Assembly (NCBI GenBank): GCA_025966365.1
Contig: JAICWV010000016.1
Span: 1-37,324 of the forward strand
DNA from: Chloroflexota bacterium
GTDB taxonomy: Bacteria > Chloroflexota > UBA5177
Direction of reading: 5' to 3'
Length of the DNA: 37,324 nt
Made by a program: the position numbers and the translations under genes. Shown in pieces: positions 264 through 20,250 of the stretch (its first letter is position 1; every line of letters begins with the position of its first letter). The notes below the pieces were generated by a model that worked only from the letters and a program-made list of their open reading frames with translations, did not search any database and was not told the DNA's origin.

Positions 264-292
264 TTGACAAGTTCCAGGGCCGCACCTAAGCT
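264..292 (+). promoter_or_regulatory. candidate promoter of the SBBP gene
   Basis: A consensus -35 box TTGACA (264-269) is followed after 17 nt by TAAGCT (287-292), a weak -10. It points at the ATG at 319, which has a strong purine-rich ribosome site (GGAGGAGTGGAGG) just upstream. The -35 is convincing and the -10 is poor. Confidence 0.35.
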
Positions 293-318
293 TGTCCCAC
301 GGTTTGGAGGAGTGGAGG

Positions 319-2793: not shown

Positions 2794-2818
2794 GCGGTGA
2801 CAGGGCCAGGTGGAAGCT

Positions 2819-3697
2819 CTACCACTCCCTCCCGACCTTCTGAAGCTGGCTAAGCTGCCACCGGACGAAAGACAGCCCCTGCGGCTTCGTCTCCGTGATC
2901 CCGACCTCGGGCACGTGGAACTGGGAGGCGATGCTTCGCATCCGCACCGTCATCGGACTGGACACCTGACTGTTGTAGAAGAGCAGGCGCGCCGTGTGAT
3001 TCTGGAGCGCCTCCTGAAAATCGGCGACGGAACGCGGCGAGGGATCGGTGCCGTCCATGATCGCCTTCTGGAAGGGGGCATCGAGCGAGGTCAGACCCAG
3101 GGCATCGAGCATGTAGCCGTAGACCGGCTCGGAGGCAATCACGGTTTCCCCCACGGTCCGGTGGCGGAGCGTCCGGATCTCTCGCTCGATCGGCTGCAGC
3201 GAGCGAATCCAGGCTGCCTCTCGTGCCCGGTAATACGTCCGATGCCCGGGATCGAGCGTCGAAAGTGCCGCGGTGATGGCCCGAGCAATCTTCGGCCAGC
3301 CGCCCGGCATGTACCAGACGTGCGGGTTGTCTCCGGTGCTGCGGCCGAGCAGCGAGCCGACGGTGATGACCGTGCGGCCGGAGTCGGGGGCGGCACTCAA
3401 GAGCCGGTCGAGCCAGGAGTCATAGCCCAGGCCGTTCTCGATGACCAGCTTCGCGCCGGCGACCGTCCTCGCCGTCGAGGCACTGGCCTCGTACTCATGG
3501 GGGTCGGTGTTGGGATTGGTGAGCAGGCTGGTGACGTAGACGTATTTGCCGCCGATGGCGGCGGCGATGGACCCATACTGATCTTCGGCCGCGACCACCG
3601 AGATCAGGCCCTTGGGGACGGTGGTGGCCGAACTACCGCAGGCCGCGAGGCTCAGGACGAGAGGCAGCAGGAAGGCCGCCCGGCGCGCGCGAGTCAC
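2819..3697 (-). CDS. metal (Zn/Mn) ABC transporter substrate-binding lipoprotein
   Basis: A cluster A-I (ZnuA/PsaA-type) solute-binding protein of 292 aa. The start is GTG 3697, which overlaps the permease stop in a GTGA arrangement. It gives a short basic N-terminus and a clean lipoprotein signal with lipobox LAAC (Cys20). The upstream extension in the open frame runs into the permease gene. Metal-ligand positions visible are His67 (DPHEYE), His126 (NPHVW), Glu190 (SEPVYGY) and an acidic residue near 269 (ITETKP). Known zinc binders usually have His at the third position, whereas manganese binders of the PsaA type have Glu there. No His-rich loop is present, so the metal is uncertain. It is the last gene of an ATPase-permease-lipoprotein operon and would deliver metal at the outer face of the membrane. 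Confidence 0.9.
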   Translation of the reverse strand: MTRARRAAFLLPLVLSLAACGSSATTVPKGLISVVAAEDQYGSIAAAIGGKYVYVTSLLTNPNTDPHEYEASASTARTVAGAKLVIENGLGYDSWLDRLLSAAPDSGRTVITVGSLLGRSTGDNPHVWYMPGGWPKIARAITAALSTLDPGHRTYYRAREAAWIRSLQPIEREIRTLRHRTVGETVIASEPVYGYMLDALGLTSLDAPFQKAIMDGTDPSPRSVADFQEALQNHTARLLFYNSQVSSPMTVRMRSIASQFHVPEVGITETKPQGLSFVRWQLSQLQKVGREW

Positions 3698-4548
3698 GAA
3701 CCGAGGCTGCCCTCGATAGCCTGGGCTGGGAGCACGTTGCCGATCACGCCCATCCATACGAGCAGCCGAACCAGGAGATAGGCCGCCACCGCGGCGCTGG
3801 CGATAAAGAAGCTCACCGAGTAGTCGGTGTAATAGGCAAGAATCAGCCCGAACCAGGTCTCGAGCACCCCCAGCCCCACGGCGAGAGAGAGTGCCGGATA
3901 CAGGCGCGGCGTCAGGTACATGGCGGTGGCCGGCGGCGCCACCAGCAGCGCGAAGATCAGGAGGACGCCCACCACCTGCACCGCCTCGGAGACAGCCAGC
4001 GCCACGATCAGCAGGAAGACGGCGGAGAGGAGCCGGGTGGGAACGCCGCGCGCTTCGGCCGCGATGGGGTTCATCGACATGAACAGCAGGGGGCGTGAGA
4101 TAAAGCTCAGCGCCACCAGCACCACGATCCCGATGCCCAGGCTGAGGGCGACGTCACTCCGGCTGATGCCCATGATGGAGCCGAAGAGGATGCTGAACGC
4201 CTCCGAGGCGTAGGCCGTGTAGAGCTGGAGGAAGAGGATGCCTAACCCCAGGGCAAAGGCGAGCACGATGCCGATGGCCACATCCCGCCCTTCAAGCCGC
4301 TCCCCCAGCAGCCCCATGGCCAGCGCCGCCAGCAGGGTGAAGGCAAGCAATCCCCAGATAGGGCTCACTCCTACCAGGACCGCCCCCGCCGCGCCCGAGA
4401 ACCCGATGTGTGACAGCGCGTGGCCGGCAAAGGTCACATGGCGCAAGACCACGAAATAGCCCACCACCGAGGCCACGATCGCGACGATCGTTCCCGCCAG
4501 AAAGGCGTTCTGCATGAACTCGTATTGCAGAATCTCCGTCAATGGCAC
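3694..4548 (-). CDS. metal ABC transporter permease (ZnuB/MntB family)
   Basis: An integral membrane protein of 284 aa with about eight hydrophobic segments. It carries the ABC-3 family pattern near the N-terminus (FVVLRHVTFAGHALSHIGFS, residues of about 33-52), which forms the coupling surface and the pore-lining His/Ser region. It forms the membrane channel of the metal importer together with the neighbouring ATPase and lipoprotein. Its start overlaps the 3' end of the ATPase gene by 10 nt, and its stop overlaps the start of the binding protein, so all three are likely translationally coupled. The length is normal for the family. Confidence 0.93.
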   Translation of the reverse strand: MPLTEILQYEFMQNAFLAGTIVAIVASVVGYFVVLRHVTFAGHALSHIGFSGAAGAVLVGVSPIWGLLAFTLLAALAMGLLGERLEGRDVAIGIVLAFALGLGILFLQLYTAYASEAFSILFGSIMGISRSDVALSLGIGIVVLVALSFISRPLLFMSMNPIAAEARGVPTRLLSAVFLLIVALAVSEAVQVVGVLLIFALLVAPPATAMYLTPRLYPALSLAVGLGVLETWFGLILAYYTDYSVSFFIASAAVAAYLLVRLLVWMGVIGNVLPAQAIEGSLGS

Positions 4549-5838: not shown

Positions 5839-7113
5839 TTAGGCGCCCTGTCTCTCGACTCGAGCCGTTTCCGGCGGCAAAACCACTCGACTTTCAAGGG
5901 TGAAGCGCGGGAGGGTGAGGAGCAGGATGAGCGAGGCCACCAGGTATCCGCCGCCCTGGAAAATGTTGAGCATGGCAACCGGGCCCAGGATGCTGCCCGC
6001 GGCCCCGGCCAGCAGAGAGCCGATCAGGCTGGCGAGCGCGGAAACGGTTCCCCGGGCGCCGAAGACGCGGCCGCGAAAGGCATCTGGTGCCGACAGCTGC
6101 AGCAGGGTGGTATAGCTCGATCCGACTGCGGCGGCCGGGAGCCCCACTAACGCGATCAGCACCAGCCCCAGCCAGACGCCGGGGACCACCAGCGGGGAGC
6201 TGAAGAGGGCGATATCCAGCAGGCCGAAGCACAGCCCACCGATCCAGGCCAGACGTCTGGGCACCACCCGGCTCCCGATGGATCCAATCACCAGCCCGCT
6301 CAGAATCCCGCCCACCGCCTGGGCGCTCATGAACCACCCCAGCTGGAGTGCCGTGCCGTGAATAACCTGCTTGACCCAGATGACGAACATGGTTGCCATC
6401 ACGCCCTCACCCACGGCCATCAGCGCAAAGAGGCTGAAGAGGATAGTGAGCGCCGTGCTCCGGCGCACCAGGCGCATGCCTTCTACCCACTCTTGCCGGA
6501 TCCCCTGCGGCGGCTCGGCAGCGCCTGTATGCGGCTGGGTGACACCTCGGGGGAGGGACATACAGGCGACCAGCGCTGCCGCCACCAGAAATGTGGCCGA
6601 ATCGATCACCGTTACCCCACGGATCCCGGCAGCTGCCGCGATGAGGCCGCCGAGGGTGGGACCGACCAGGCGGGAGACGTTCATGTTGAGCGAGGACAGT
6701 GAATTGGCGGTTACCAACTGCTCCTCGCGCACCAGGGTGGGCAGGAGGGCCGCTTCGGCCGGATTGGCGAACTGCGCGACGGTGGACTGGACGAAGCCCA
6801 CCAGATAGACGATCCAGACGAAATCGGCGGAGTGGACCAGGAGGAGAGGGAGCAACGTGATCGCCAGGATCAGATTGGACGCCAGCATGATGGTCTTGCG
6901 CGGCCAGCGATCGGCGTACACGCCGGCGACGGAGCCCAGCAGCAGCGCGGGAGCAAGCTCGGCGATGACCGCTCCACTGGTCGCCATGGGCGATCCCGTG
7001 ATGGTGTAGACGTAAATGGGGAGCGCAATGTACAGGATCCAGTCGCCGGTCATGGAGATGAGGCCGGAGACCCAGATAAGCAAGAAGTTCCGCTGCCGCA
7101 GGACTGCCAGCAT
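5839..7113 (-). CDS. MFS transporter (EntS/MFS_3-like exporter)
   Basis: A major facilitator protein of 424 aa with about 12 hydrophobic segments. The start is ATG 7113, preceded by GAGGG 2 nt upstream of the start codon; an ATG 21 nt further up has no ribosome site. The N-terminal pattern (FLLIWVSGLISMTGDWILYIALP) and the loop 2-3 motif GVYADRWPRK are typical of the MFS_3 group, which contains the enterobactin exporter EntS and macrolide/multidrug effluxers. The central cytoplasmic loop (PHTGAAEPPQGIRQEW) separates the two six-helix halves. The substrate is unknown. A plausible promoter lies at 7192-7220, so it appears to be transcribed on its own. Confidence 0.9.
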   Translation of the reverse strand: MLAVLRQRNFLLIWVSGLISMTGDWILYIALPIYVYTITGSPMATSGAVIAELAPALLLGSVAGVYADRWPRKTIMLASNLILAITLLPLLLVHSADFVWIVYLVGFVQSTVAQFANPAEAALLPTLVREEQLVTANSLSSLNMNVSRLVGPTLGGLIAAAAGIRGVTVIDSATFLVAAALVACMSLPRGVTQPHTGAAEPPQGIRQEWVEGMRLVRRSTALTILFSLFALMAVGEGVMATMFVIWVKQVIHGTALQLGWFMSAQAVGGILSGLVIGSIGSRVVPRRLAWIGGLCFGLLDIALFSSPLVVPGVWLGLVLIALVGLPAAAVGSSYTTLLQLSAPDAFRGRVFGARGTVSALASLIGSLLAGAAGSILGPVAMLNIFQGGGYLVASLILLLTLPRFTLESRVVLPPETARVERQGA

Positions 7114-7191
7114 TGCCCTCAACACTCCGCACATTGTCGGAACCGCCCGTCACTCCAGAGAAATCAGTGACAGTCGCCCCGCCTTGAAACA

Positions 7192-7581: not shown

Positions 7582-9030
7582 TCAGGGACTGTTGCCGGCC
7601 GCTGCCTGAGGGAACTGGGTGAGGGTCTGCAGGAAGGCGACGATTGCCGCCGCCTTCTTCGGCGTCAGCGTGTTTCCATAGGCCGGCATGCCGCCGCCGC
7701 CGTTCATGATGCGCGTGACCAGCTGGTTGTAGGTATTGCGGTCGGCGATGTAGGTCAGGTTGGGACCGCGCAGGCCGCCCACGTTGTCAATCATGTGGCA
7801 GGCCATGCAGCCTTCCGTGTGCAGCAGGTGTGCCCCGAGGAGCTGCTGCGCGTTGAGCCCTCTCGTTGCCTGCTGCGGCACCGATGGAATGCCGCTGTTG
7901 GTCGGGCCCACGAAAACCGGAGACCAGGGGGACTCATACCCCTCGAAGACCAGAATGGCCGTGATTATGGCGGCGAATGCGACAATCGCCACTGCCCACG
8001 GACGCTTGGAGTAGTGCCGCTCCCCCTTGTTGGCAAGCGGAATAAGGAACAGTACGCCAAACGCCAGCGCCGGGAAGAGGATGATGAAGTAGTCCTCGCT
8101 TGACGGCGGAATGAGCGCCAGCAAGGCGAAGTACCAGATCAGATACCAGTCCGGACGTGGATTGGCCGGTAGCGTGGGATCGGCGGGGTGACCCAGGGTG
8201 GCGGCGCCGGCGAAGACGGCGAGCGCCAGAACCACGACCCCGGCCAGGAGACCCATGAAGGCATCGCGGGAGGTGCCGACCGGGAAGAACGGCTCGCCGT
8301 CCTCATGCAGGATGCGCTGATAGTTGGGCCAGTAGGTTTTGGGATCGACCGGCTCGCCGGGGATGGGCCACTCAGAGACGCCCTTGTAAATGACCAGGTA
8401 GAGGTGCATGCCAATCAGGCCCAGCATGGCACCCGGAACCAGGAAGACGTGGATGGCGTAGAAGCGGGTAAGCGTGCCGCCTCCGACGACAGGGCCGGCG
8501 GTGAGAAGCTGCATCACCCAGCCGCCGATGAAGGGGGTTCGGGCCGCCTGCTCCGCGCCCACGACCACCGCCCAGTAGGCGTCCTGGTTCCAGCGCAGGA
8601 GCTGGCCGGTAAAAGCCATCAGGATGGTGCAGATCAGCAGGAGCGAACCGCTGATCCATTGCAGCTCGCGCGGAAACTTGTAGGACCCGGTGAGATAGTG
8701 CGCGGTCATATGGATAAAGACCACCAGCACCATGGCCGATGCGCCCCAGTAGTGGATGCCGCGGATCACATTCCCCAGAACCTCTTTATGGGTAATCCAG
8801 TACAGGCTCTGATAGGCGTGATCCGGGGAGGGGATATAGACAAAGGCCAGGAAGATGCCGGTGATGATCTGGAAGGTAAAGGCAAAGAGCGCGCAGCTTC
8901 CAAAGACGTACCACCAGTTGACGCTGCGCGGCACCTTGTGGCCCATGGTCGCGTTCCACATCATGCCGAGCCCCAGACGGTCGTCGAGCCAGTCGTACAC
9001 GCCGAGACCGGCCAGTAGCATTTTCTCCAT
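7582..9030 (-). CDS. qcrB: menaquinol:cytochrome c reductase cytochrome b fused to a c-type cytochrome domain
   Basis: A protein of 482 aa combining a complete cytochrome b with a monohaem cytochrome c. The N-terminal half is b6-like: it begins VYDWLDDRLGL, and the haem His pairs are His93/His107 and His194/His209. The 14 residues between the second pair are the b6-type spacing. The Cys that carries the extra haem ci in b6f complexes is replaced (Val42 by my alignment). The quinol-oxidation motif appears as PDWY (293-296), as in Gram-positive menaquinol enzymes. After eight or so membrane helices, residues of about 390-482 form a cytochrome c domain with CMACH (408-412) and a likely Met ligand at 448 (GGMPAYG). 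It is transcribed just after the Rieske gene, with 10 nt between them. Confidence 0.95.
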   Translation of the reverse strand: MEKMLLAGLGVYDWLDDRLGLGMMWNATMGHKVPRSVNWWYVFGSCALFAFTFQIITGIFLAFVYIPSPDHAYQSLYWITHKEVLGNVIRGIHYWGASAMVLVVFIHMTAHYLTGSYKFPRELQWISGSLLLICTILMAFTGQLLRWNQDAYWAVVVGAEQAARTPFIGGWVMQLLTAGPVVGGGTLTRFYAIHVFLVPGAMLGLIGMHLYLVIYKGVSEWPIPGEPVDPKTYWPNYQRILHEDGEPFFPVGTSRDAFMGLLAGVVVLALAVFAGAATLGHPADPTLPANPRPDWYLIWYFALLALIPPSSEDYFIILFPALAFGVLFLIPLANKGERHYSKRPWAVAIVAFAAIITAILVFEGYESPWSPVFVGPTNSGIPSVPQQATRGLNAQQLLGAHLLHTEGCMACHMIDNVGGLRGPNLTYIADRNTYNQLVTRIMNGGGGMPAYGNTLTPKKAAAIVAFLQTLTQFPQAAAGNSP

Positions 9031-9040
9031 GGAATTTCCC

Positions 9041-9586
9041 CTACGAGTAGATGGGCAGTGGGTGTGTCTTGATCTGGACGCGGCCGTTTACCACGCGCGT
9101 CTCATAGTGGAAGAGCGGCCGTGGCGCAGGGCCGCCGGCCACCGTGCCGTCGGCGTTGAACACGCTGCCGTGACACGGGCAGAGAAAGATTTTGGGTTCG
9201 TTGAGCCAGTGGATCGGGCAGCCCAGGTGCGTGCAGTACACGGCGTAGGCAATGAACGAATTCTGGCCGGTGCGTCGAAGCCAGGCGGCCTGGACCGCCG
9301 TCCGGCCGGCCCAGGGCACGGGGCCGTTGGCCTCGAAAGAGGCCTCGACCGTATCGCCCACCGCTATCTGGCTGAGGGTGATTGTCTTCCCGGATTTGGG
9401 CCCGTTGGAGAAGGTGACCGTCTGCCAGCGTTCCGCCGGCTGCTTGAACAGGGGGACAAAGATGTAGCCGATGATGGGGATGCCGACGGCCAGGCCGCCC
9501 AGTGCGCCGAAGCTCAGCGTAAAAATGCCCAGGAAGCCCTCCCGGGTCATGAGCTTCCTAGTGAGAGTGGGAATGCTGATGCTCAT
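9041..9586 (-). CDS. qcrA: Rieske iron-sulfur protein of the bc complex
   Basis: A Rieske protein of 181 aa. ATG 9586 has an AGGA ribosome site at suitable spacing and gives a family-like N-terminus: a short basic stretch with TRKLMTREGF, then one membrane anchor (about 18-45). The [2Fe-2S] motifs are CTHLGC (Cys118, His120, Cys123) and CPCHGS (Cys136, Cys138, His139), including the disulfide pair Cys123-Cys138. The domain faces outside the membrane and carries electrons from quinol to the haem c of the neighbouring cytochrome b-c protein. Its start lies inside the 3' end of the previous gene (29-nt overlap), which suggests coupled translation. Confidence 0.95.
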   Translation of the reverse strand: MSISIPTLTRKLMTREGFLGIFTLSFGALGGLAVGIPIIGYIFVPLFKQPAERWQTVTFSNGPKSGKTITLSQIAVGDTVEASFEANGPVPWAGRTAVQAAWLRRTGQNSFIAYAVYCTHLGCPIHWLNEPKIFLCPCHGSVFNADGTVAGGPAPRPLFHYETRVVNGRVQIKTHPLPIYS

Positions 9587-9818
9587 GCCGTAATTCCTGG
9601 ATCCAGTAGATGATAGCGACGATGGAAACGATGATGCCGGCAATCAACACGGGCGCGGTGGTGATGACACCGGCGCCGGTGACGGTGATCCCAAGCGCGA
9701 GAGTTATCGGCCATATGGAGAGCGGGGGCAGATGGACCGGCTGCTCCGCAACCTCGTACTCCTCCACGGGGGGCGCCGTCGGTGGAGGAGCGATGTCCTC
9801 CCGCGCATCCCTGTACAT
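9558..9818 (-). CDS. small membrane subunit of the oxidase (COX IV-like)
   Basis: A protein of 86 aa from ATG 9818, which has a strong GGAGG site 10 nt upstream; the longer open frame would extend into repeats. After a proline-rich, acidic N-terminus come two hydrophobic segments (about 33-50 and 54-74), starting with PPLSIWPITLALG. The protein ends in a His-rich tail (HEHQHSHSH). A one- or two-helix protein with a PxSIWP start next to COX I-III is the usual form of the small, poorly conserved fourth subunit of bacterial aa3 oxidases. The assignment rests on this pattern and on location. The His-rich tail could bind copper or another metal. Confidence 0.7.
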   Translation of the reverse strand: MYRDAREDIAPPPTAPPVEEYEVAEQPVHLPPLSIWPITLALGITVTGAGVITTAPVLIAGIIVSIVAIIYWIQELRHEHQHSHSH

Positions 9819-9851
9819 CCTGTTATTCCTCCGTGAGAAAAATGTAGTGCA

Positions 9852-9934
9852 GGGCTTTAGCCCGGTCGCCCGGCGCAGTGACGCTTGCACCCCGCGGTCC
9901 CTGAGAGATTGGGGGTGCCCCCGCACTAAAGTGC
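9852..9934. repeat. REP-like palindromes (CTAAAG type) between oxidase genes
   Basis: Three perfect short palindromes lie between the COX I-III stop and the small-subunit gene: GGGCTTTAGCCC (9852-9863), GGGGGTGCCCCC (9911-9922) and GCACTAAAGTGC (9923-9934). The first recurs as an inverted pair at 28821-28888. They may form hairpins that stabilise or partly terminate the COX I-III message and lower expression of the downstream bc genes. Confidence 0.55.
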
Positions 9935-9956
9935 TGCCCTAGGCTTACGTCGTAGC

Positions 9957-12242
9957 TCATAGCAATGTGCGCAAATACACGATCGAGAAGATGAAGACCC
10001 AGACACCGTCGACAAAGTGCCAGTAGTAGCCTACCGCTCGCACCGGTGTGTCGTGCTTGGCGGTCCAGTCGCGCGACAGCAGCAGGATGGTGCAGAGCGC
10101 GATCAGTCCCACAAAGACGTGGAACCCGTGGAAGCCGGTCAGGGTGAAGAAGGTGGTCCCGAATTCGCCGGCCGAGCTGATGGTCGTCTTCTCGCTGTAC
10201 AGCTTGGCGTACTCGGTGATCTGCCCGATGAGGAAGGTGGCGCCCAGGATGATGGTGCCGATGAGCAAGGCCCTGAACATCCGCTTGTTTCCGTTGCTCA
10301 GGAAGCGCTCGGCCAGGATCATGGTGCCGCTACTGGCAAACAGCGCGAGGCTGAACCAGTAGGTTCGCGGAATGTCGAGCTGACGCGAGGTGAAGTGGAA
10401 GGAGTACACCGAGTACATCACGATCAGCGAGACGAAGAAGATGGACTCGGAGCTGATGAAGAAGAGCACCAGCATCCGGCCCGGCGAGATGGAAAACTTC
10501 GGTTTCTCGACGGCTCCCGGCCGCGCCGCCACCGCGGTAGCGGCTCCGGCCGGCACGGCGGCAGGAATCGGTTGAGAGGTCGCCGTTCCGTGGTGCTCGT
10601 AGCGCCAGTCGGGCATGTCGGGGTGAGCCAGATCCCAGAGCGGACGGCGGCTCCGAACCGTGGGCGTCTCCACGAAGCCGTAGGCGGGCGGCGGGGAGGG
10701 TAGGAGCCATTCCAGGCTATACGCGTTCCACGGGTTTGGTCCCGCCTTTTCCCCGCGCCGGAGGCTCTGGAGGATGTTGTAGGCCAGGAGCAAGAACGAT
10801 ACGGCCAGCATCAACGCCCCGAAGGTGGCCAGGAGGTTATACCCGGTCCATTCCGTATTGGTATAGGTATAAACCCGGCGGGGCATCGCCACCAGGAAGT
10901 GCATGGGGAAGAAGGTCAGGTTAAAGCCGATAAAGAAGATCCAGAACTGGTAGGTGCCGAGCTTCTCCGAGAGCATCCGGCCCGTCATCTTGGGGAACCA
11001 GTAGTAGAGGGCTGCCATCAGCAGGAACATGGTGCCCCCGAAGAGCACGTAGTGGAAATGCGCCACCACGAAGTAGGTGTCGCTGCTGGCGTAGTCGAGC
11101 GGGACCACCGCGAACATGACGCCGGAGATGCCGCCGATGGTGAACATGACGATGAAGGCGGCAGCGAACTTCATGGAGGTGGTCCAGCGAATCTTCCCGC
11201 CCCACATGGTTCCGATCCAGTTGAAGATCTTGACGCCGGTCGGAACGGCGATCACCATGCTGGTGGCGGCGAAGAAGGACTGCTCACTCTCCGTCAGGCC
11301 GGTGGTGAACATGTGGTGCGCCCAGACGATGAAGCTGATGAAGCCGATGGCCACGCCGGAAAACGCGACGAAGGTGTAGCCGAAGAGCGGCTTGCGCGAG
11401 AACACGGGGATGATCTCCGAGGCCATGCCGAAGGCGGGCAGAATCATGATGTACACCTCTGGATGTCCGAAGCCCCAGAAGAGGTGCTGCCACATCACGA
11501 CGTTGCCGCCCTGCTGCCAGACGAAGAAGTGGGTGCCCAGGAGGCGGTCGAAGATCAGCAGAATCGAATCGGCGGTCAGGAAGGGCATGGCCCAGATGAT
11601 GAGGAAGGAGTTGACCAGCACCATCCAGACAAAGAGCGGCATGCGGTTGAGCGACATACCAGGACAGCGGTAGACGATGATGGTGACGATCAGGTTCAGG
11701 GAGGTGGCGATGGATCCGGCTCCCAGGACGGTCAGTCCCACCGCCCAGAACAGCGGGCCGTTGTCCATGGTGTAGGGCTGCTCCCAGAGGTTGGCGTACG
11801 CGAACCAGCCGACGGCGGGCAGCGAGCCCTGGAGCAGGCTGAAGTAGAGCAGCAGGCCGCCAAAGAGCAGTAGCCACAGACTCATCGCATTCAGCCGCGG
11901 GAACGCCATGTCGCGATAGCCGATCATGATGGGAACGAAATAGTTGGCGAAGCCGATCAGCGCCGGCATGACCACCAGGAAGATCATGGTGACGCCGTGC
12001 ATCGTCATCAGCTGGTTGTAAACGTGCGCCGCGATCACGCCGTTTTGCGGCACAGCAAGCTGCCAGCGCATAAGGAGCGCCTCGACACCGCCGAGCAGGA
12101 AGAAGAACGCAACGATGATGAGATACATAATCCCGATCAGCTTGTGATCGGTGGTCTTGACCCACGCCAGGGCCCCCTCGAAGCTGTTGATCCGGGGTAA
12201 GGGATGGGTTCGGATCTCGTCAGTAATGGTTGCGGTTGCCAT
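9957..12242 (-). CDS. ctaD: cytochrome c oxidase subunit I-III fusion
   Basis: A protein of 761 aa in which COX I (about 1-550) is joined to COX III (about 590-761) by an Ala/Pro linker. The haem-copper motifs are complete: MHGVTM for low-spin haem a, WGFGHPEVYIMILP with the cross-linked His/Tyr and the A1-type channel Glu, WAHHMF for CuB, and HFHYVLFGG for the two haem irons. D-channel residues (YRDMAFPRLN) and the K-channel Lys (AVPTGVKIF) are present, so this is an A1-type proton-pumping oxidase. The COX III part contains FHGFHVFVGL and ends YYWHFVDGVWVFIFSIVYL, the family's usual end. ATG 12242 follows a purine-rich GAAGAGGAA site, and the gene lies 13 nt after ctaC. Confidence 0.97.
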   Translation of the reverse strand: MATATITDEIRTHPLPRINSFEGALAWVKTTDHKLIGIMYLIIVAFFFLLGGVEALLMRWQLAVPQNGVIAAHVYNQLMTMHGVTMIFLVVMPALIGFANYFVPIMIGYRDMAFPRLNAMSLWLLLFGGLLLYFSLLQGSLPAVGWFAYANLWEQPYTMDNGPLFWAVGLTVLGAGSIATSLNLIVTIIVYRCPGMSLNRMPLFVWMVLVNSFLIIWAMPFLTADSILLIFDRLLGTHFFVWQQGGNVVMWQHLFWGFGHPEVYIMILPAFGMASEIIPVFSRKPLFGYTFVAFSGVAIGFISFIVWAHHMFTTGLTESEQSFFAATSMVIAVPTGVKIFNWIGTMWGGKIRWTTSMKFAAAFIVMFTIGGISGVMFAVVPLDYASSDTYFVVAHFHYVLFGGTMFLLMAALYYWFPKMTGRMLSEKLGTYQFWIFFIGFNLTFFPMHFLVAMPRRVYTYTNTEWTGYNLLATFGALMLAVSFLLLAYNILQSLRRGEKAGPNPWNAYSLEWLLPSPPPAYGFVETPTVRSRRPLWDLAHPDMPDWRYEHHGTATSQPIPAAVPAGAATAVAARPGAVEKPKFSISPGRMLVLFFISSESIFFVSLIVMYSVYSFHFTSRQLDIPRTYWFSLALFASSGTMILAERFLSNGNKRMFRALLIGTIILGATFLIGQITEYAKLYSEKTTISSAGEFGTTFFTLTGFHGFHVFVGLIALCTILLLSRDWTAKHDTPVRAVGYYWHFVDGVWVFIFSIVYLRTLL

Positions 12243-12255
12243 TCGTTCCTCTTCT

Positions 12256-13338
12256 CTACTTCAGGCTCATGAGATACGCGGCGAGCGACTTGATTTGATG
12301 ATGGGATAGGAGCGGGTATCCGGGCATGAGCACGCCCGGCTTGAAGTGGCTGGGCTGATGAATCCAGCCCATGGCATCGGCCATGTTCATGCGGGCCGCT
12401 CCGGCGCCGATGGTCCAGCGGCTGGCAAGATGCGTCAGATTCGGCGCGGCGGTCCCACTTGCCTTGCTGCCCGGCATATCGATGGTATGGCACTCCACGC
12501 AGGTGGACGCCATAAACAGCTTCTCCCCGGCGAGTGCCAGACCGCCTTTGGGTTTGTTGGCGGAGGATCTCATATGCGCGGCCCAGGCGTTAAAGGCGCC
12601 TTTGGGCTGGACAACCATCCGGAACTTCATCCAGGCGTGGGCGTCGCCGCAGTACTCGTAACACATGCCTCCATAGATGCCCGGCGTATCCATCTCGGCG
12701 AAGACGGCGTTGTCCTGCCCGGGGTTGGCGTCGATCTGACGCTGGAGCTGCGGGACCCAGAACGAGTGAACCACATCGGCCGACTCCACGTGAAAGTGCA
12801 GCGGGACATTGGCCGGGACGTGGACTTCATCGTCGGTGGTGATGTTGAGCGTGGGGTATTCGAACTCCCAATACCACTGGTGTCCCTTGGCCACGATGTC
12901 GAGCGGATGCGACCCGGCCGGTGGCGTGTTGATGTCGTGGATGTACTTCACGGTGATGCCGAACGCGACCACCAGAATGATGAACGGGATGGCCGTCCAG
13001 GTGATCTCGATCGGCCGACTTCCATAGAGCTGGGGCGGAGGCTCGTCGTCGCCCGGCCTGGCCGAGTTGTGCGTGATGATGTAGAGCAGCGCGCCGACGA
13101 CGCCAATAAAGATGATCGCGGAGAGGATGAGCATGATCCAGAAGAGATTCGAGATCATGTGCATCTCGCCCGACTTCGGATCGAGCGGAGCCCAGGGCGG
13201 CCCCGGATTCCAGGAGGGACGAGGGAGCGCGAAGGCGACAGCCGGCCATAGGGCCACCACGCCGCCGAGGAAAGCGGGAAGTGCGAGAACGCGCTTCTTC
13301 TTCAAGATGCGTAGACCGGTATGCACGACCGTAGGCAT
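12256..13338 (-). CDS. ctaC: cytochrome c oxidase subunit II with fused cytochrome c domain
   Basis: A protein of 360 aa. ATG 13338 is preferred to upstream ATG/GTG codons because GGGAG lies 5 nt before it and a signal/anchor segment follows directly. There are two membrane helices (about 62-88 and 108-132), the aromatic patch KGHQWYWEF, then the CuA site His191, Cys226, Glu228, Cys230, His234, Met237 (CYEYCGDAHAWM). Residues of about 262-360 are a monohaem cytochrome c with CVECH (280-284) and a probable Met ligand in GVLMPGYP. This makes it a caa3-type subunit II that can take electrons directly from the bc complex. It lies 31 nt after ctaG. Confidence 0.96.
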   Translation of the reverse strand: MPTVVHTGLRILKKKRVLALPAFLGGVVALWPAVAFALPRPSWNPGPPWAPLDPKSGEMHMISNLFWIMLILSAIIFIGVVGALLYIITHNSARPGDDEPPPQLYGSRPIEITWTAIPFIILVVAFGITVKYIHDINTPPAGSHPLDIVAKGHQWYWEFEYPTLNITTDDEVHVPANVPLHFHVESADVVHSFWVPQLQRQIDANPGQDNAVFAEMDTPGIYGGMCYEYCGDAHAWMKFRMVVQPKGAFNAWAAHMRSSANKPKGGLALAGEKLFMASTCVECHTIDMPGSKASGTAAPNLTHLASRWTIGAGAARMNMADAMGWIHQPSHFKPGVLMPGYPLLSHHQIKSLAAYLMSLK

Positions 13339-13369
13339 CGACACTCCCATCCTTCGTGTCCGCGTGCCT

Positions 13370-14200
13370 CTAAGAGAGGTGCGGTCCAATTGTAGGTGAT
13401 TGCGCTGGATTGGCCTCCTCGCCCCCCTCGAACCATTTGTAGAAGGCGGCGATGAGTGAAACGGCGTATGGAATGTTTCCCGGGTACCACATGATCAACC
13501 CGCCGAGCTGCTGGTCCGTGAGTGCCGAGATGCCCCAGACCCGCGGAGCCGACAGATATGGCGTGTAGAACACGATAGGCGAGAACGTGAAAACAATACC
13601 TAAGACCATCATAAACATCCCGTCCGCGAACAGGTACAGCACCTGCAGCGGATACGACAGGCGCTGCTCCTTGATGGGGCTGAGGATCGGCCACCAGTTG
13701 ATGACCCCGAAGGCCATGAACGTCAGGTGCTCGAGGATGTGGACCGCCTCATTTTCCAGCGTCAGGTCGTAGAGGGCGGGAATGTGCCAGAGGTAGATAT
13801 CGACGTTGAAGAAGATGATGGCGATGGCAGGGAGAACGAAAAATTGAGCCAGCGACGCGGTTGGTCTCCAGCGGAAGACTGGCGCCACCAGCCAGCCGGG
13901 CAGGGAGAGCAGAATGAGCGGCGGCCAGAGGGACGCGAGGAGCAGGTGCTGCACCATGTGGGCACTGAAGAGGTACTCGTCCCCCAGCTCGTCGAGCGGG
14001 GACATCAGCGCCAGCACCAGCACGAGCTGGGCGGTGATGAAGAGGGCAATCCGCCCGCGCCCGAAAGGCGGCTCTCCCCGTCGCCGACGCAGCGGACCCG
14101 CGGCATAGGCATAGCCCAGACTGATCAGGGCGATCCCGATGACGATGCTGGGTTCCCAGGTCCACTGGGTCAGCACCTCTCCTGTTGTTGGTGCTGCCAA
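13370..14200 (-). CDS. ctaG: caa3 oxidase assembly factor CtaG
   Basis: A multi-helix protein of about 276 aa from the CtaG_caa3 family, which is needed for copper delivery and assembly of caa3 oxidases. Seven hydrophobic segments are visible, with conserved patterns FSAHMVQHLLLASLWPPLI, VDIYLWHIPALYDLTLENE and AVHILEHLTFMAFGVINWW. The His pairs are the likely copper ligands. TTG 14200 is chosen because AGGAAGG precedes it by 5 nt and a candidate promoter (14233-14261) would place the transcript start downstream of the alternative GTG at 14242. It is the first gene of the respiratory unit. Confidence 0.92.
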   Translation of the reverse strand: MAAPTTGEVLTQWTWEPSIVIGIALISLGYAYAAGPLRRRRGEPPFGRGRIALFITAQLVLVLALMSPLDELGDEYLFSAHMVQHLLLASLWPPLILLSLPGWLVAPVFRWRPTASLAQFFVLPAIAIIFFNVDIYLWHIPALYDLTLENEAVHILEHLTFMAFGVINWWPILSPIKEQRLSYPLQVLYLFADGMFMMVLGIVFTFSPIVFYTPYLSAPRVWGISALTDQQLGGLIMWYPGNIPYAVSLIAAFYKWFEGGEEANPAQSPTIGPHLS

Positions 14201-14232
14201 TCGATCCTTCCTGGCTGCGGGTCTCCTGCCCG

Positions 14233-14261
14233 ACCATAGCACAGCATTTTGAGGGCTTCAC
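14233..14261 (-). promoter_or_regulatory. candidate promoter of the respiratory operon
   Basis: On the minus strand GTGAAG (14261-14256), a 17-nt spacer and TATGGT (14238-14233) form a moderate promoter. Transcription would begin near 14227, leaving a leader of about 27 nt that contains the AGGAAGG ribosome site of ctaG. Confidence 0.4.
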
Positions 14262-14468: not shown

Positions 14469-15023
14469 TTGAGTAGGGTCGGGTACTTGCTCCTGCTGGT
14501 CATGCTGGTTGCAAGTACTCAGATCGCGCAGGCACAGACCGGCAACCGCACGCCCCTTCTGGGTCACTCGCTCACGCGTGCGCTGGATGCCCCTACCCTG
14601 ACTCCGGTGGTGCCGACGGTTCAGGTGCCGAACGAACCGGTGGCGATTCCCACCGTCTCAGTTCCCCAGCCGACGCCGAAACCGGTCCACAAGCGTCACA
14701 AGAAGAAGGCCAAGGGGACGTCTAAGGGAACGGCCGGAAACGCCTCGCTGCGAAGCCAGAACGAGACCTGGGTCTGGGCCTATCTCACGTCGTACTGCCC
14801 CGGCAGCGCCGGCTGGCTCTCGTCAAGCGGCCTGCCCGTCTTTTACGGGATGCTGGCCAACGACTACTACCCGTTCGGCACACGAGTCTATATCCCCGTG
14901 ATCGGAATGGTGGGCGTGGTTGAAGACCACGTGGGCGACTACTCCTGGAACCACTTCGACGTCTGGAGCCCGGTCTGCTACGGGACGCCGACCGGGTGGT
15001 TCAAGGTCGCGATCGAGGGCTAG
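14469..15023 (+). CDS. secreted 3D-domain (double-psi beta-barrel) protein
   Basis: An exported protein of 184 aa from TTG 14469, with GGAGG 3 nt upstream (rather close); TTG 14487 is an alternative. A signal peptide (YLLLLVMLVASTQIAQAQ) is followed by a Thr/Pro/Val linker and a basic patch (HKRHKKKAKGT). The C-terminal domain of about 90 residues has the pattern YPFGTRVYIPVIGMVGVVEDHVGD...NHFDVW. This is the 3D domain known from resuscitation-promoting and MltA-type lytic proteins; its acidic residues (Glu/Asp in VVEDHVGD, and FDVW) are the likely active site for peptidoglycan cleavage. It has its own upstream region and is convergent with, and overlapping, the next small gene. Confidence 0.72.
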   Translation: MSRVGYLLLLVMLVASTQIAQAQTGNRTPLLGHSLTRALDAPTLTPVVPTVQVPNEPVAIPTVSVPQPTPKPVHKRHKKKAKGTSKGTAGNASLRSQNETWVWAYLTSYCPGSAGWLSSSGLPVFYGMLANDYYPFGTRVYIPVIGMVGVVEDHVGDYSWNHFDVWSPVCYGTPTGWFKVAIEG

Positions 15024-15334: not shown

Positions 15335-16210
15335 ATGTTCCCAGTGCTCCGAGAGTTTATCAAGACGCAGTCCTGGTTGGATACCCTGGGTGACCCGCTC
15401 CAGAAGCTGCTCATGGGGTTCTTTCCCCAGGACGACCCCACGCGCAAGCAGCTTCAGAACTTCCTGAACGGAGTCTGGCTCGGGCATCCGCTCCACCCCA
15501 TGGTGACCGACGTGCCGGTGGGCGCGTGGACCTCAACCTTTGTCCTGGATGTCGCCGCCTCGGTGACCGACACGGACGGCCTGGAAACGGCAGCCGATCT
15601 GACCCTGCTGGTCGGCCTTCTGGGCGCCTATAGCTCCGCCGCCAGCGGCCTGACCGACTGGATGGACACCTACGGCGAGGAGCGGCAGCTGGGTCTGCTG
15701 CACGGGGTGACCATGCTGACGACGACGGCTCTGTATTCGCTCTCACTCCTGGCCCGCCTCTCCGGCGCCCGCTCCACCGGCGTGAACCTGGCCCACCTCG
15801 GCTACCTGCTTCTTGCCGGCGGCGCCTATCTCGGTGGGGATGAAGTCTACGACGTGGGCTACGGCGTGAACCATACCGCCTTCCAGCACGGACCCGGAAA
15901 GTTCACGGCGGTCATGGCCGAGGCGGAGGTCCCCGACGGCGGCCTGACCAAGGGCGAGGCGGGCGGCGTGCCCGTTCTTCTGGCGAAGGTGGACGGTCGG
16001 GTCTATGCCCTGGATGATACCTGCGTGCATGCCGGCTGCTCCCTGGCTGGAGGCAGCCTTTCCGGCACGGTCGTGACCTGCCCCTGCCACGGCTCCCAGT
16101 ACGACGTCCGCGACGGCCGGGTGCTGAACGGTCCCGCCACCATGAACGAGCCGTCGTACGAGGTGAAGATCGTGGAGGGCGTGGTGGAGGTCAAGCAGCG
16201 ATCGGGATAA
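15335..16210 (+). CDS. DUF2231 membrane domain fused to a Rieske [2Fe-2S] domain
   Basis: A protein of 291 aa. ATG 15335 has a near-perfect AGGAGGT site. Residues of about 45-170 are the DUF2231 module with its signature HPLHPMVTDVPVGAW and four hydrophobic segments. Residues of about 195-288 are a Rieske domain with CVHAGC (Cys230, His232, Cys235) and CPCHGS (Cys249, Cys251, His252). The Rieske part resembles ferredoxin components of dioxygenases rather than the bc complex protein. It is likely a membrane-tethered electron carrier; partner and substrate are unknown, and no oxygenase is nearby. Confidence 0.9.
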   Translation: MFPVLREFIKTQSWLDTLGDPLQKLLMGFFPQDDPTRKQLQNFLNGVWLGHPLHPMVTDVPVGAWTSTFVLDVAASVTDTDGLETAADLTLLVGLLGAYSSAASGLTDWMDTYGEERQLGLLHGVTMLTTTALYSLSLLARLSGARSTGVNLAHLGYLLLAGGAYLGGDEVYDVGYGVNHTAFQHGPGKFTAVMAEAEVPDGGLTKGEAGGVPVLLAKVDGRVYALDDTCVHAGCSLAGGSLSGTVVTCPCHGSQYDVRDGRVLNGPATMNEPSYEVKIVEGVVEVKQRSG

Positions 16211-16439: not shown

Positions 16440-17267
16440 CTAGCTGCCGTTGGAGCCGTTCTGCGGGGCAGTCGGTCCTGAGGTTCGCCCCGCGTTCACG
16501 AAGGCCAGCGCATCATTGCTGACGACTTCGTACATGCGGGCCAAATCCCCGTGCCATTCCTCCGGCAGATCGTGGAGGGGAATGGGGCCGAGGCGCTTCA
16601 AGATCGCCTGCGGGACCGGCGGGGGGGTGACGCGAATGGTGATGTCTTCCAGCTCGTCGCCCGCCTCCCAGTAGTCGGCGATGTGGTCCTCCAGCGGCTC
16701 GGAGCTGACCTTGGGGGCACGCGCCTGCGGGGGGCGCTCCAGCCGCTGCCCGCGGAGGGCCGCCATCAGCTGCTCGCGGCTCTTGCCGCGAAGCTGGAAG
16801 AGGAGGAAGGGGTCGCGGTCGAACTCGGAGCCCAGGACGTAGTACACCGCCGCCACGTGCTTGCAGGGACTGGCCCAGTCGGGGCAAGTGCAGGACATGA
16901 TCAGCTCGTCGCCCGATTTGGGGAAGAGGGAGACCTCGGCGGAGGCGAAGATCTCTTCGATATCGCGCGGCATCTCGCCCGAGAGGAGCCTCGCCCCATA
17001 GATCGCCTTCCGCCGCAGGAGGCCGATTACCCGGCTCCAGTCGGCCCGGCTTAAAGGCTTGAGGCCGATCTCGACCCGGTAGGGCTTGTTGCGCGATCCC
17101 TGCACCCTGGCGCGCACCAGGCCCGGCTGGATGTCCACGTCGAGGACGTTGCCGTGGCGCGCGTAAGAGCGGCCGCGGTTGAGGCGAGCGCTCCATCCGA
17201 AACGTTCCAGCACCCGGATCCAGCGCTGCGCCCACCAGGACTGCGCGAATTCCGTCTTGCGTGACAT
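16440..17267 (-). CDS. SWIM zinc-finger protein, partner of the SNF2 helicase
   Basis: A protein of 275 aa with a SWIM zinc-binding motif CTCPDWASPCKH (Cys126, Cys128, Cys135, His137). The N-terminal region begins FAQSWWAQRWIRVLERF, the usual start of bacterial SWIM proteins encoded beside SNF2 helicases. The last 90 residues are Pro-rich and acidic, with no known domain. It starts 5 nt after the helicase stop; the helicase stop region itself provides the GGAG and GGGGA ribosome sequences. SWIM domains bind DNA or protein, so a joint role with the helicase in DNA remodelling or repair is inferred from this widespread pairing. Confidence 0.88.
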   Translation of the reverse strand: MSRKTEFAQSWWAQRWIRVLERFGWSARLNRGRSYARHGNVLDVDIQPGLVRARVQGSRNKPYRVEIGLKPLSRADWSRVIGLLRRKAIYGARLLSGEMPRDIEEIFASAEVSLFPKSGDELIMSCTCPDWASPCKHVAAVYYVLGSEFDRDPFLLFQLRGKSREQLMAALRGQRLERPPQARAPKVSSEPLEDHIADYWEAGDELEDITIRVTPPPVPQAILKRLGPIPLHDLPEEWHGDLARMYEVVSNDALAFVNAGRTSGPTAPQNGSNGS

Positions 17268-17271
17268 TCCC

Positions 17272-20250
17272 CTACTCCACCATGACCGCTTCGCGCCGCA
17301 GCTCGAAGAGGCTCCGCAGTTCGTCGGTGGAGAGTTCGGTCAGCCAGGACTCGCCCGCGCCCACGATGCTTTCCACCAGCTGCTTCTTGCTCTCGATCAG
17401 CTCATCAATCCGCTCTTCCAGCGTGCCGGAACAGATCATCTTGTGGACCTGCACGTTGCGCGTCTGGCCGATACGGAAGGCGCGGTCCGTTGCCTGGTCC
17501 TCGACGGCGGGATTCCACCAGCGGTCGTAATGGAAGACGTGGCTGGCCCGCGTCAGGTTGAGACCGATGCCGCCCGCCTTGAGCGAGAGGATAAAGACCG
17601 GCGGGCCGCGGCGGTCGTTCTGGAAACGGGTCACCAGCCGGTCGCGCACATGGCGGGGAGTGCCGCCGTGCAGGTAGAAGATATCCCGGCCCAGCCGCTC
17701 GCGCAGGTAGCTCTGGAGCTCGCGGCCGAACTCGGCGTACTGGGTGAAGACGAGGGCGCGATCGTCCGCCGCAACCACTTCGTCCAGCATCTCCTCCAGG
17801 CGCGCCAGCTTGCCGGAGCGCCCGGGCATGGTGCTGCGGTCGCCCAGGAAGTGGGCAGGATGATTGCAGATCTGCTTGAGCTTGGTAATGGAGGAGAGGA
17901 CCAGCCCTTTGCGCTTGATGCCCTCCGAGGATTCGATCTGCTCCATCATGTCGCGCACCACCGCCTCGTAGAGGGAGGCCTGTTCCGGCATCAGCGAGCA
18001 GTAGACCTTCATCTCCAGTTTTTCGGGCAGGTCGGAGATGATGGTCGGATCGGTTTTGACGCGGCGGAGGATGAAAGGCTGGACCAGGGTGCGAAGCTGG
18101 GCTTTGGTTCCGGCATCGTTGCCGCGCTCGATGGGAATGGAGAAGTCCTTGCGGAAGCGGTCGGCGGAGCCGAGATAGCCGGGATTCAGGAACTCCATGA
18201 TCGACCACAGCTCGGAGAGGCGGTTTTCGACCGGCGTGCCGGTCAGCGCCACGCGAAAGTCCCCCTTGAAGGAGCGCACCGCCTGCGCCTGCTTGGTGCT
18301 GGCGTTCTTGACGTTCTGGGCCTCGTCCAGCACGATCCCCTTCCAGCTCAGTGATTCCAGCAGCTCGCGATCACGCGCCGCCAGGGCATAGGTGGTAATG
18401 ACCATATCGTGCTTCTGGGCTTCCAGGGCGAACTCGGGACCGTTGAGCCGGCCCGGACCGTGATGCGTCATCACACTGATGGAGGGGGCAAAGCGGCGCA
18501 GCTCGTGCTCCCAGTTGCCAACCACCGACATGGGGCAGATGAGGAGGACAGGCCCGTTGAGGGTGTTGCTCTCCTTCATATTCAGCAGCATGCTGGTCAG
18601 CTCGACCGTCTTGCCCAGGCCCATGTCGTCGGCCAGGCAGGGGCCGAGGCCGCGCTCGACCAGGAAGTGCAGCCAGGAGACGCCGCGCCGCTGGTAGGGC
18701 CGGAGCTCGCCCACGAAGCTCCCGGGCTGCGGCAGGTCGGGGATATTGCCGTCCTTCTCGAAGAGAGCGTTCAGCCAGCCCTCGGTCTCGACCGATTCGA
18801 TGGGCAGGTCGCTGTCCAGCTCGCCGGTCCCGGCAGCCAGTGAAAGTGCCTTGGAGAGCGGGAGAGTATCGCCACCGTTCTTTTCCCAGAAGGTCTGGGC
18901 CTTCTGCACGTCCTCGGCATTCAGCTCCACCCACTCGCCGCGAACACGAACCAACGGTGACTTGAGGGCGGCCAGGCGGGCAAACTCTTCAGGATTCACG
19001 CCCTTCCCGCCCAGCGAGAGCTGCCAGTCGTACTTGACCAGCGTATCCAGCCCCACGATGCTGGACTGTCCATTGGACTCGCCCTCGCCCGGGCGCAGCC
19101 GGATGCGGGCAGCCAGGCCGCGGCGCCGTTTGGTCCACCAATTGGGAACGATGACACCCATCCCCGACTCTTCCAGCACAGGTCCGGCCTCGCGCAGGAA
19201 CACATGTGCCTGATGGACGGAGAGGTGCGCGACCTCGGGATGAGCGGTCTTGAGGGCTTTTTCCAGCGGCGGGAAGATGCGCATGGCGGTACCCAGGTCG
19301 GCCAGGAGCTTCTCCTGAGCCCGGCCCTGCTTGGCACGGACGATATTCCAGCCGTGGCCGCGCTGCTTCCATATCTGGCCGACCGGGACCAGGACGCTGG
19401 GATCCTCAACTGATTGCAGGAAGAAGCGGAGGAGCCAGGGCGCGCGGGGATTGTTGGGCGCCTCCAGCCGGAAGGTGGTGCGGAAGGCCTCGTTGGCAAC
19501 CACCTGCAGCGGCTCCAGCCACTTTTTGACAGCACCGCGCAGTCGTTGGTCGATCTTGATGGTGGTCGGCTGCTCCTCCTCCCTCGGGCGGGCCAGGCTG
19601 AGAAGCCAGATATATGCCTGCGCGCGATTGCCCTGGCTGATGCGCGAGGGAACGCTGGGCTCCCATCGCTGCAGCGACTGGCGGCAGAGGGCATCGATCG
19701 TGGCCTGGAGGAACGAGTCCAGCACGGTCGTGGCCGAGGGCGGTGCGCCAAAGGGGAGCATGGCGCGGCAGACCGGCGGCATGGAGCGCGCCAGGCGGGT
19801 GAATCGTCCCCGATCGTCGCCGGCCAGAACCGGCTGCCAGAGCGCTACATTGCGGTCGTTGATGGTGGGCACGTAGCGCTCGCGAGCAAGCAGCTCGAGG
19901 ATAAAGCGCGCCGCGGTCTGCCAGAAGCGCAGATCGTCCCCCATGTTCTCGTCGGGCGAGAGCGTCAGCAGGTGGAACATCGCGTCCACCGCCGAAAGTT
20001 TGAGCGCGCTGATCTCGACTGGCTGCAGCGTCACCTCGTCGGCCGAATCGTTGGAATCGGACGAGGAGAGCGGACGCCCGCCGGCACAGGGCATGAGCAG
20101 AGAGATAGGCGAGGGCTCTCCCTGAACCAGGGGGAACCGCTCGCGGAGATCGTCTGCTCCTACGATGCGATCGTTGTCTTCGTCCAGTCGCTCGGCCCAC
20201 AGATAGAAGGAGCCGCCACACGACTCAGGACGCCAAAGCCCGTGAAGCAC
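17272..20250 (-). CDS. SNF2-family DNA helicase/translocase
   Basis: A 992-aa protein. A SNF2-associated N-terminal region (about 1-500) is followed by two RecA-like domains. Visible motifs: DDMGLGKT (motif I, about 540), DEAQNVKN (motif II, about 638), LTGTPVENR (motif III), SLKAGGIGLNLT (motif V, about 887) and a motif VI region ATDRAFRIGQ. It uses ATP to move along double-stranded DNA and displace proteins; the biological target of the bacterial Rad54-like members is not settled. GTG 20250 is the only early start in frame, with a stop six codons above. LHGLWRPES right at the N-terminus matches how related proteins begin. It is transcribed before the SWIM gene. Confidence 0.94.
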   Translation of the reverse strand: MLHGLWRPESCGGSFYLWAERLDEDNDRIVGADDLRERFPLVQGEPSPISLLMPCAGGRPLSSSDSNDSADEVTLQPVEISALKLSAVDAMFHLLTLSPDENMGDDLRFWQTAARFILELLARERYVPTINDRNVALWQPVLAGDDRGRFTRLARSMPPVCRAMLPFGAPPSATTVLDSFLQATIDALCRQSLQRWEPSVPSRISQGNRAQAYIWLLSLARPREEEQPTTIKIDQRLRGAVKKWLEPLQVVANEAFRTTFRLEAPNNPRAPWLLRFFLQSVEDPSVLVPVGQIWKQRGHGWNIVRAKQGRAQEKLLADLGTAMRIFPPLEKALKTAHPEVAHLSVHQAHVFLREAGPVLEESGMGVIVPNWWTKRRRGLAARIRLRPGEGESNGQSSIVGLDTLVKYDWQLSLGGKGVNPEEFARLAALKSPLVRVRGEWVELNAEDVQKAQTFWEKNGGDTLPLSKALSLAAGTGELDSDLPIESVETEGWLNALFEKDGNIPDLPQPGSFVGELRPYQRRGVSWLHFLVERGLGPCLADDMGLGKTVELTSMLLNMKESNTLNGPVLLICPMSVVGNWEHELRRFAPSISVMTHHGPGRLNGPEFALEAQKHDMVITTYALAARDRELLESLSWKGIVLDEAQNVKNASTKQAQAVRSFKGDFRVALTGTPVENRLSELWSIMEFLNPGYLGSADRFRKDFSIPIERGNDAGTKAQLRTLVQPFILRRVKTDPTIISDLPEKLEMKVYCSLMPEQASLYEAVVRDMMEQIESSEGIKRKGLVLSSITKLKQICNHPAHFLGDRSTMPGRSGKLARLEEMLDEVVAADDRALVFTQYAEFGRELQSYLRERLGRDIFYLHGGTPRHVRDRLVTRFQNDRRGPPVFILSLKAGGIGLNLTRASHVFHYDRWWNPAVEDQATDRAFRIGQTRNVQVHKMICSGTLEERIDELIESKKQLVESIVGAGESWLTELSTDELRSLFELRREAVMVE

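Follow-up and report, generated by a model that had tools for sequence, protein, structure and literature searches.

A bc–caa3 operon with one fused haem c per complex in a Chloroflexota genome with no other class-I cytochrome c domain

The genome of a Chloroflexota bacterium encodes exactly two class-I cytochrome c domains (PF00034, PF13442), and both are parts of respiratory proteins encoded in a single operon, one at the C-terminus of cytochrome b and the other at the C-terminus of cytochrome c oxidase subunit II (COX II). We propose that this block is a bc–caa3 operon of the Bacillus/Thermus kind whose two fused haems probably meet directly in a tight assembly of the two complexes. It is not the fused-haem layout that stands out but the fact that all other cytochromes c have been lost. 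What is new here is the combination of a single-chain b6–IV–c protein with a caa3 oxidase whose COX I and COX III are fused, in a lineage without any other cytochrome c. The window, i.e., the whole stretch of 37,324 nucleotides that was analysed, is an entire contig (C179) of a 3.59-Mb metagenome-assembled genome (MAG) of 253 contigs, which is 97.4% complete and 3.4% contaminated.

The operon consists of six genes, all on the minus strand, that run nearly end to end from position 14242 to position 7582 in the order CtaG, COX II–haem c, COX I–III, COX IV-like, Rieske and b6–IV–haem c (Table 1), with neighbours that overlap or are ~10–140 nt apart. The open reading frames (ORFs) and their Pfam and NCBIfam matches agree with the preliminary description, which had reported a nearly contiguous six-gene block on one strand. 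The same is true of the two C-terminal haems that it had placed on COX II (CVECH at residue 297, Cytochrom_C 48 bits) and on cytochrome b (CMACH at residue 408, Cytochrome_CBB3 38 bits), while the gene identities and motifs support its wider claim of a complete quinol-to-oxygen chain with one fused haem c per complex. The start codons of three genes probably lie inside their longest ORFs. For COX II, the ATG at 13350 or 13338 is likelier than the start of the longest ORF; for the Rieske protein, the ATG at 9586 is likelier than the TTG from which the ORF reaches 9643; and for the small subunit, whose ORF extends to 9926, the ATG at 9818 is preceded by GGAGG and is likely the true start. The PF12270 (COX IV) score of this small subunit, 26.1 bits, is slightly under the cut-off of 26.9.

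Table 1. Coordinates of the bc–caa3 operon genes and of their haem c domains in the window
Feature	Coordinates	Strand	Evidence
CtaG, caa3 oxidase assembly factor (290 aa)	13370..14242	-	PF09678 202 bits, TIGR02737 105 bits
COX II with CuA site and C-terminal class-I cytochrome c domain	12256..13389	-	Pfam COX2, COX2_TM, Cytochrom_C
COX II haem c domain	12259..12531	-	PF00034 51 bits
COX I–COX III fusion (761 aa), A-family haem-copper oxidase core	9957..12242	-	PF00115 504 bits, PF00510 53 bits
Small COX IV-like membrane subunit	9558..9818	-	PF12270, homologues at the same place in relatives
Rieske iron-sulphur protein	9041..9586	-	PF00355 38 bits, CTHLGC...CPCH
Single-chain cytochrome b-c (482 aa)	7582..9030	-	Pfam, NCBIfam, 17-sequence alignment
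Cytochrome b haem c domain	7621..7836	-	PF00034 28 bits, PF13442 42 bits

Upstream of the operon, a gene at 14469–15023 runs in the opposite direction, and downstream an MFS transporter is encoded at 5839–7134, some 450 nt away. A promoter scan of the window returned one site versus two expected, and an Rfam search of the window gave no matches. Other genes of the window include one at 15335-16210 on the plus strand, ~1 kb from the operon, that encodes a DUF2231 membrane domain fused to a Rieske [2Fe-2S] domain; one at 292-2793 (plus strand) for an 833-aa protein with DUF7948 and SBBP beta-propeller repeats; and two adjacent genes at 16440-20250 (minus strand) for a SWIM zinc-finger protein and a DUF3670/SNF2 helicase.

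The cytochrome b-c protein can be divided into a b6 region (residues ~1-225), a subunit IV region (~226-385) and a haem c region (~393-475), with PF00033 at 141 bits and PF00032 slightly above its cut-off. The b6 and subunit IV regions form one continuous 482-aa frame and not separate polypeptides, in this genome as in its relatives. In an alignment of 17 sequences, the four histidines predicted to bind the b haems (H93, H107, H194 and H209) and the residues of the haem c site (C408, C411, H412 and M448) are invariant, and the histidine pairs H93/H107 and H194/H209 are separated by 13 and 14 residues, respectively, which is the spacing of the b6 type. The best NCBIfam match is to the Bacillus-type cytochrome b6 (203.6 bits versus a cut-off of 325). 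When aligned with 1q90, however, the first helix of b6 has V43 at the position of the cysteine to which haem ci is bound in b6f, and none of the 17 aligned sequences has a cysteine there. This is a difference from the Bacillus enzyme, in which that cysteine also binds haem ci. The Qo motif is PDWY (residue 293), a form that goes with low-potential quinones, so the quinol substrate is probably menaquinol. The AlphaFold model of the chain is of fair quality (pLDDT 69.9) with a poorly modelled haem c domain, and a Foldseek search with it returned ordinary cytochrome b chains only, which do not inform the placement of haem c. By sequence, the Rieske protein and the single-chain b6–IV–c thus make up a bc complex that oxidises quinol and has one haem c besides its two b haems. 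Searches of the open-access literature found no direct description of such a single-chain b-c fusion.

The operon COX II (COX2 67 bits) keeps all CuA ligands, with CYEYCGDAHAWM at residue 243 and VVHSFW at 206, and its residues 79-377, haem c domain included, align with subunit II of the Thermus thermophilus caa3 oxidase (2yev_B of 2YEV, E 3e-62), which identifies it by sequence as a COX II-c of the Thermus caa3 type. The GHPEVY motif is found at residue 259 of COX I, which scores 672.1 bits against TIGR02891, the CtaD_CoxA equivalog with a cut-off of 670.75. COX II-c and COX I–III, again by sequence, constitute a caa3 oxidase whose redox centres are haem c, CuA, haem a and haem a3-CuB. The caa3 oxidase of T. 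thermophilus also has a COX I–III fusion; Thermus, however, has a soluble cytochrome c and a bc complex that is differently built.

The preliminary description had noted that no free cytochrome c gene is present in the block, and this turned out to hold for the whole genome, well beyond the window. When all contigs were searched with the class-I profiles PF00034 and PF13442, the further matches (E >= 0.28; C139, C218 and C181) were a thymidine kinase, a DNA polymerase III delta' subunit and frames without coding signal. Codon patterns for CxxCH are not in excess (194 versus 201 in the reversed control), and among 30 places that were read out of the first 100 of these 194, only two lie in convincing genes, one judged by eye as tRNA synthetase-like and the other as DnaJ-like. 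Representatives of four other genera of the family and of one other family of the order have the same two domains, both fused (completeness of the six order MAGs, 97, 95, 84, 88, 82 and 92%); a weak second match in one of them, G035, is its own COX II-c split by an assembly gap. The free cytochrome c elsewhere that, according to the preliminary description, would speak against its proposal was thus found with these profiles neither in this genome nor in its five relatives. A free cytochrome c might still have been missed, either in the few per cent that are unassembled or in a family outside PF00034 and PF13442, given that the MAG is 97.4% complete in 253 contigs, that only class-I profiles were used and that 30 of 194 CxxCH places were read. 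The identical result in the five relatives, the lack of CxxCH excess and the absence of any cytochrome among the places read nevertheless make this explanation highly improbable. One point in favour of direct transfer is that six MAGs would all have to lack, by oversight, a free cytochrome c that is conserved.

Outside the order, the numbers are different. The sister order of the class is represented by G044, which has four cytochrome c domains. A subunit IV chain next to a separate b6 carries two of them, COX II has the third, and the fourth is that of a small, lipoprotein-like cytochrome c. Its bc complex (G044:C711:4332-6794, L097) comprises a Rieske protein, a separate b6 and subunit IV with two haem c domains; the latter resemble the haem domain of its own COX II, which suggests an independent fusion. 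Beyond the class, the best long matches to cytochrome b-c came from eighteen Chloroflexota, which have 4–16 cytochrome c domains each; in at least one of these (G080) the cytochrome b-c chain is split. As the order members have two domains and these Chloroflexota 4–16, the lack of further cytochromes c belongs to the order and not to the cassette. Searches of the open-access literature found nothing direct on cytochrome-c-free Chloroflexota. The host genome retains a System I cytochrome c maturation operon on C114 (CcmC, CcmE, CcmF, CcmG/DsbE, CcmH and CcdA), and we count its retention in favour of the explanation proposed here.

Since neither the genome nor its relatives have another cytochrome c, the hop between the two complexes would be either direct or via a copper protein, and in this genome a direct haem c-to-haem c hop within a tight assembly is most likely. 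In the path that we propose, a low-potential quinol, probably menaquinol, would be oxidised at the Qo site, from which one electron would go through the b haems while the other would pass via the Rieske protein to the haem c of the b-c chain. From there, it would move to the haem c of COX II and on to CuA, haem a and a3-CuB, where O2 would be reduced. The tight bc–caa3 assembly is probably constitutive.

Several features of this operon are shared with known systems. In Bacillus, the bc complex carries one cytochrome c domain and the caa3 oxidase another (PMC11624218, PMC9145763), and the small anchored cytochromes c-550 and c-551 serve between these two fused haems within a supercomplex (PMC11624218; PMC9145763). 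Supercomplexes of bc and caa3 are formed in Bacillus (PMC9145763; Bacillus PS3: PMC8361435), and that of Bacillus PS3, cytochrome c included, has quinol oxidase activity (PMC8361435). The operon resembles those of Bacillus subtilis and Bacillus PS3 (QcrABC plus CtaC-F) in its b6-type cytochrome b, the haem c behind subunit IV, the haem c on COX II and CtaG. Unlike in Bacillus, b6 and subunit IV-c are one chain, COX I and COX III are fused and the small anchored c-550 and c-551 (PMC11624218) are absent. With the actinobacterial bcc-aa3 system (QcrCAB, CtaC-F), it shares the joint location of the genes for both complexes and the small COX IV-like subunit (PF12270), and the lack of any other cytochrome c is shared with C. 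glutamicum (PMC9145763). In the actinobacterial enzymes, however, both c haems belong to a separate QcrC (PMC9145763) and COX II has none, whereas here there is one per complex, and Pfam and NCBIfam searches found no QcrC gene in the operon. The suggestion that this is a different layout is therefore correct in comparison with the actinobacterial dihaem QcrC, but not as a new layout: an arrangement of one haem per complex already exists in Bacillus and on Deinococcus plasmids, and we reject the idea that it is new to science.

The cassette itself also occurs in other genomes. The order COX II-c, COX I–III, small subunit, Rieske and cytochrome b-c recurs, as far as the contigs reach, at ten further loci, of which eight are titled Chloroflexi/Chloroflexota and two Proteobacteria; CxxCH is found in COX II and cytochrome b wherever these genes are present, and the position of CtaG varies. 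L039 and L043, from Centralia MAGs titled Proteobacteria, have a Chloroflexota-type operon (75% and 53% identity, respectively), and the title of L039 is probably wrong. The parts of the cassette are found in altered order in a MAG titled Spartobacteria. Among cultivated bacteria, Deinococcus gobiensis I-0 and Deinococcus sp. D7000 carry on plasmids an operon of the same kind, with COX II-c, COX I, COX III, CtaG, a small protein, Rieske and a single-chain b-c. Their cytochrome b-c is 46% identical and annotated only as a "cytochrome b N-terminal domain-containing protein", and their COX II has CxxCH. Unlike in the Chloroflexota operon, the Deinococcus COX I and COX III are encoded by separate genes and CtaG is elsewhere in the operon. 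Different Chloroflexota families and the Deinococcus plasmids thus share the cassette, and wherever both genes are on the contig, COX II and cytochrome b each have CxxCH. Other Chloroflexota bc operons share the gene order Rieske-b6-IV and differ in how the modules are joined: in many, b6 is a protein apart from a subunit IV that carries two c haems (L106-L111, L116), and in another (L113) a b6–IV chain has a separate cytochrome c gene nearby. The single-chain fusion is therefore one of several arrangements of these modules. The anchored cytochromes c of Bacillus (PMC11624218) and the 4–16 domains of the Chloroflexota outside the class indicate that some hosts may need more than the fused haems.

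A copper protein may substitute for cytochrome c, a possibility that goes beyond the preliminary description and for which the genome holds candidates. PF00127 matches six domains in five proteins, and four cupredoxins keep C-x2-H-P-x-M with complete type-1 copper ligands (one on C43, two on C208 and one on C175). The genome thus encodes four small cupredoxins that could replace cytochrome c, and its gene content stops short of a chain without any free carrier. A second A-family oxidase, with a CtaG, a Sco and a COX III of its own, is encoded on C141 (G000:C141:1-14000, L081, especially 3070-3837 and 2134-3060, minus strand), and its COX II has intact CuA ligands and no haem c. Adjoining it is an anchored, 255-aa COX II-like ORF without a match among Pfam and NCBIfam models, whose conserved SHTF and C-x3-C are reminiscent of a CuA site minus one histidine; the pair is kept in five of the six order members. 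No cytochrome bd was found as a further oxidase in the six order genomes. On C208 (G000:C208:8500-15500, L082), two cupredoxin genes, one with two copper domains, are clustered with genes that, judged by eye, encode a sigma factor of the ECF type and a Rieske protein whose N-terminus is anti-sigma-like, a second Rieske/copper set apart from the bc operon.

The main rival to direct transfer is therefore that a type-1 cupredoxin, secreted or anchored, took the place of the small cytochrome c and now carries electrons to the oxidases from the haem c of the b-c chain, in which case the fused haems need not touch. Besides the four complete copper sites, the C141 oxidase lends weight to such a shuttle, as a CuA oxidase without haem c needs some donor and, in five of the six order members, this one has the anchored COX II-like ORF as a neighbour. 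We nevertheless consider a shuttle to be distinctly unlikely: G035 keeps the cassette without a PF00127 domain at E <= 1 (in a MAG that is 88% complete), all cupredoxins are encoded away from the bc–caa3 operon, with none in or near it, and a carrier that reaches CuA directly would make the fused haem of COX II unnecessary. Because the C141 oxidase has neither haem c nor an obvious cytochrome donor, the bc complex may also feed this oxidase and need not be locked to caa3.

Direct transfer between the fused haems could also proceed without a stable supercomplex, if the bc and caa3 complexes were separate and met by diffusion in the membrane so that electrons passed on collision. The sequence demands no stable contact, and the operon encodes no obvious bridging subunit except the small COX IV-like protein. 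Against this, the bc and (c)aa3 enzymes of Bacillus and Actinobacteria form supercomplexes (PMC9145763, PMC8361435), and across a broad phylogenetic range a single tight operon holds the genes of the two complexes together. Collisional transfer, which overlaps with the reading that we prefer, is therefore unlikely in our judgement, and a tight assembly with direct contact between the two haems remains the probable arrangement. A bolder version, which is conceivable though we regard it as rather doubtful, is that the order has cut its c-type proteome to two haems and has an obligate bc–caa3 supercomplex with direct single-haem transfer that dispenses with the bridging cytochrome c of Bacillus, while a copper protein feeds the C141 oxidase from the same bc complex.

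In other respects the biochemistry is that of ordinary aerobic respiration, and the finding is a useful test case more than a great surprise. A key question is whether fused haems c can pass electrons directly or whether a small carrier is always needed. The small cytochromes c of Bacillus make this difficult to decide in that organism. With only two haem c proteins and a full Ccm pathway, the organism offers a small and tractable system, and a lineage that has both fused haems but no other cytochrome c is a natural test case for this question.
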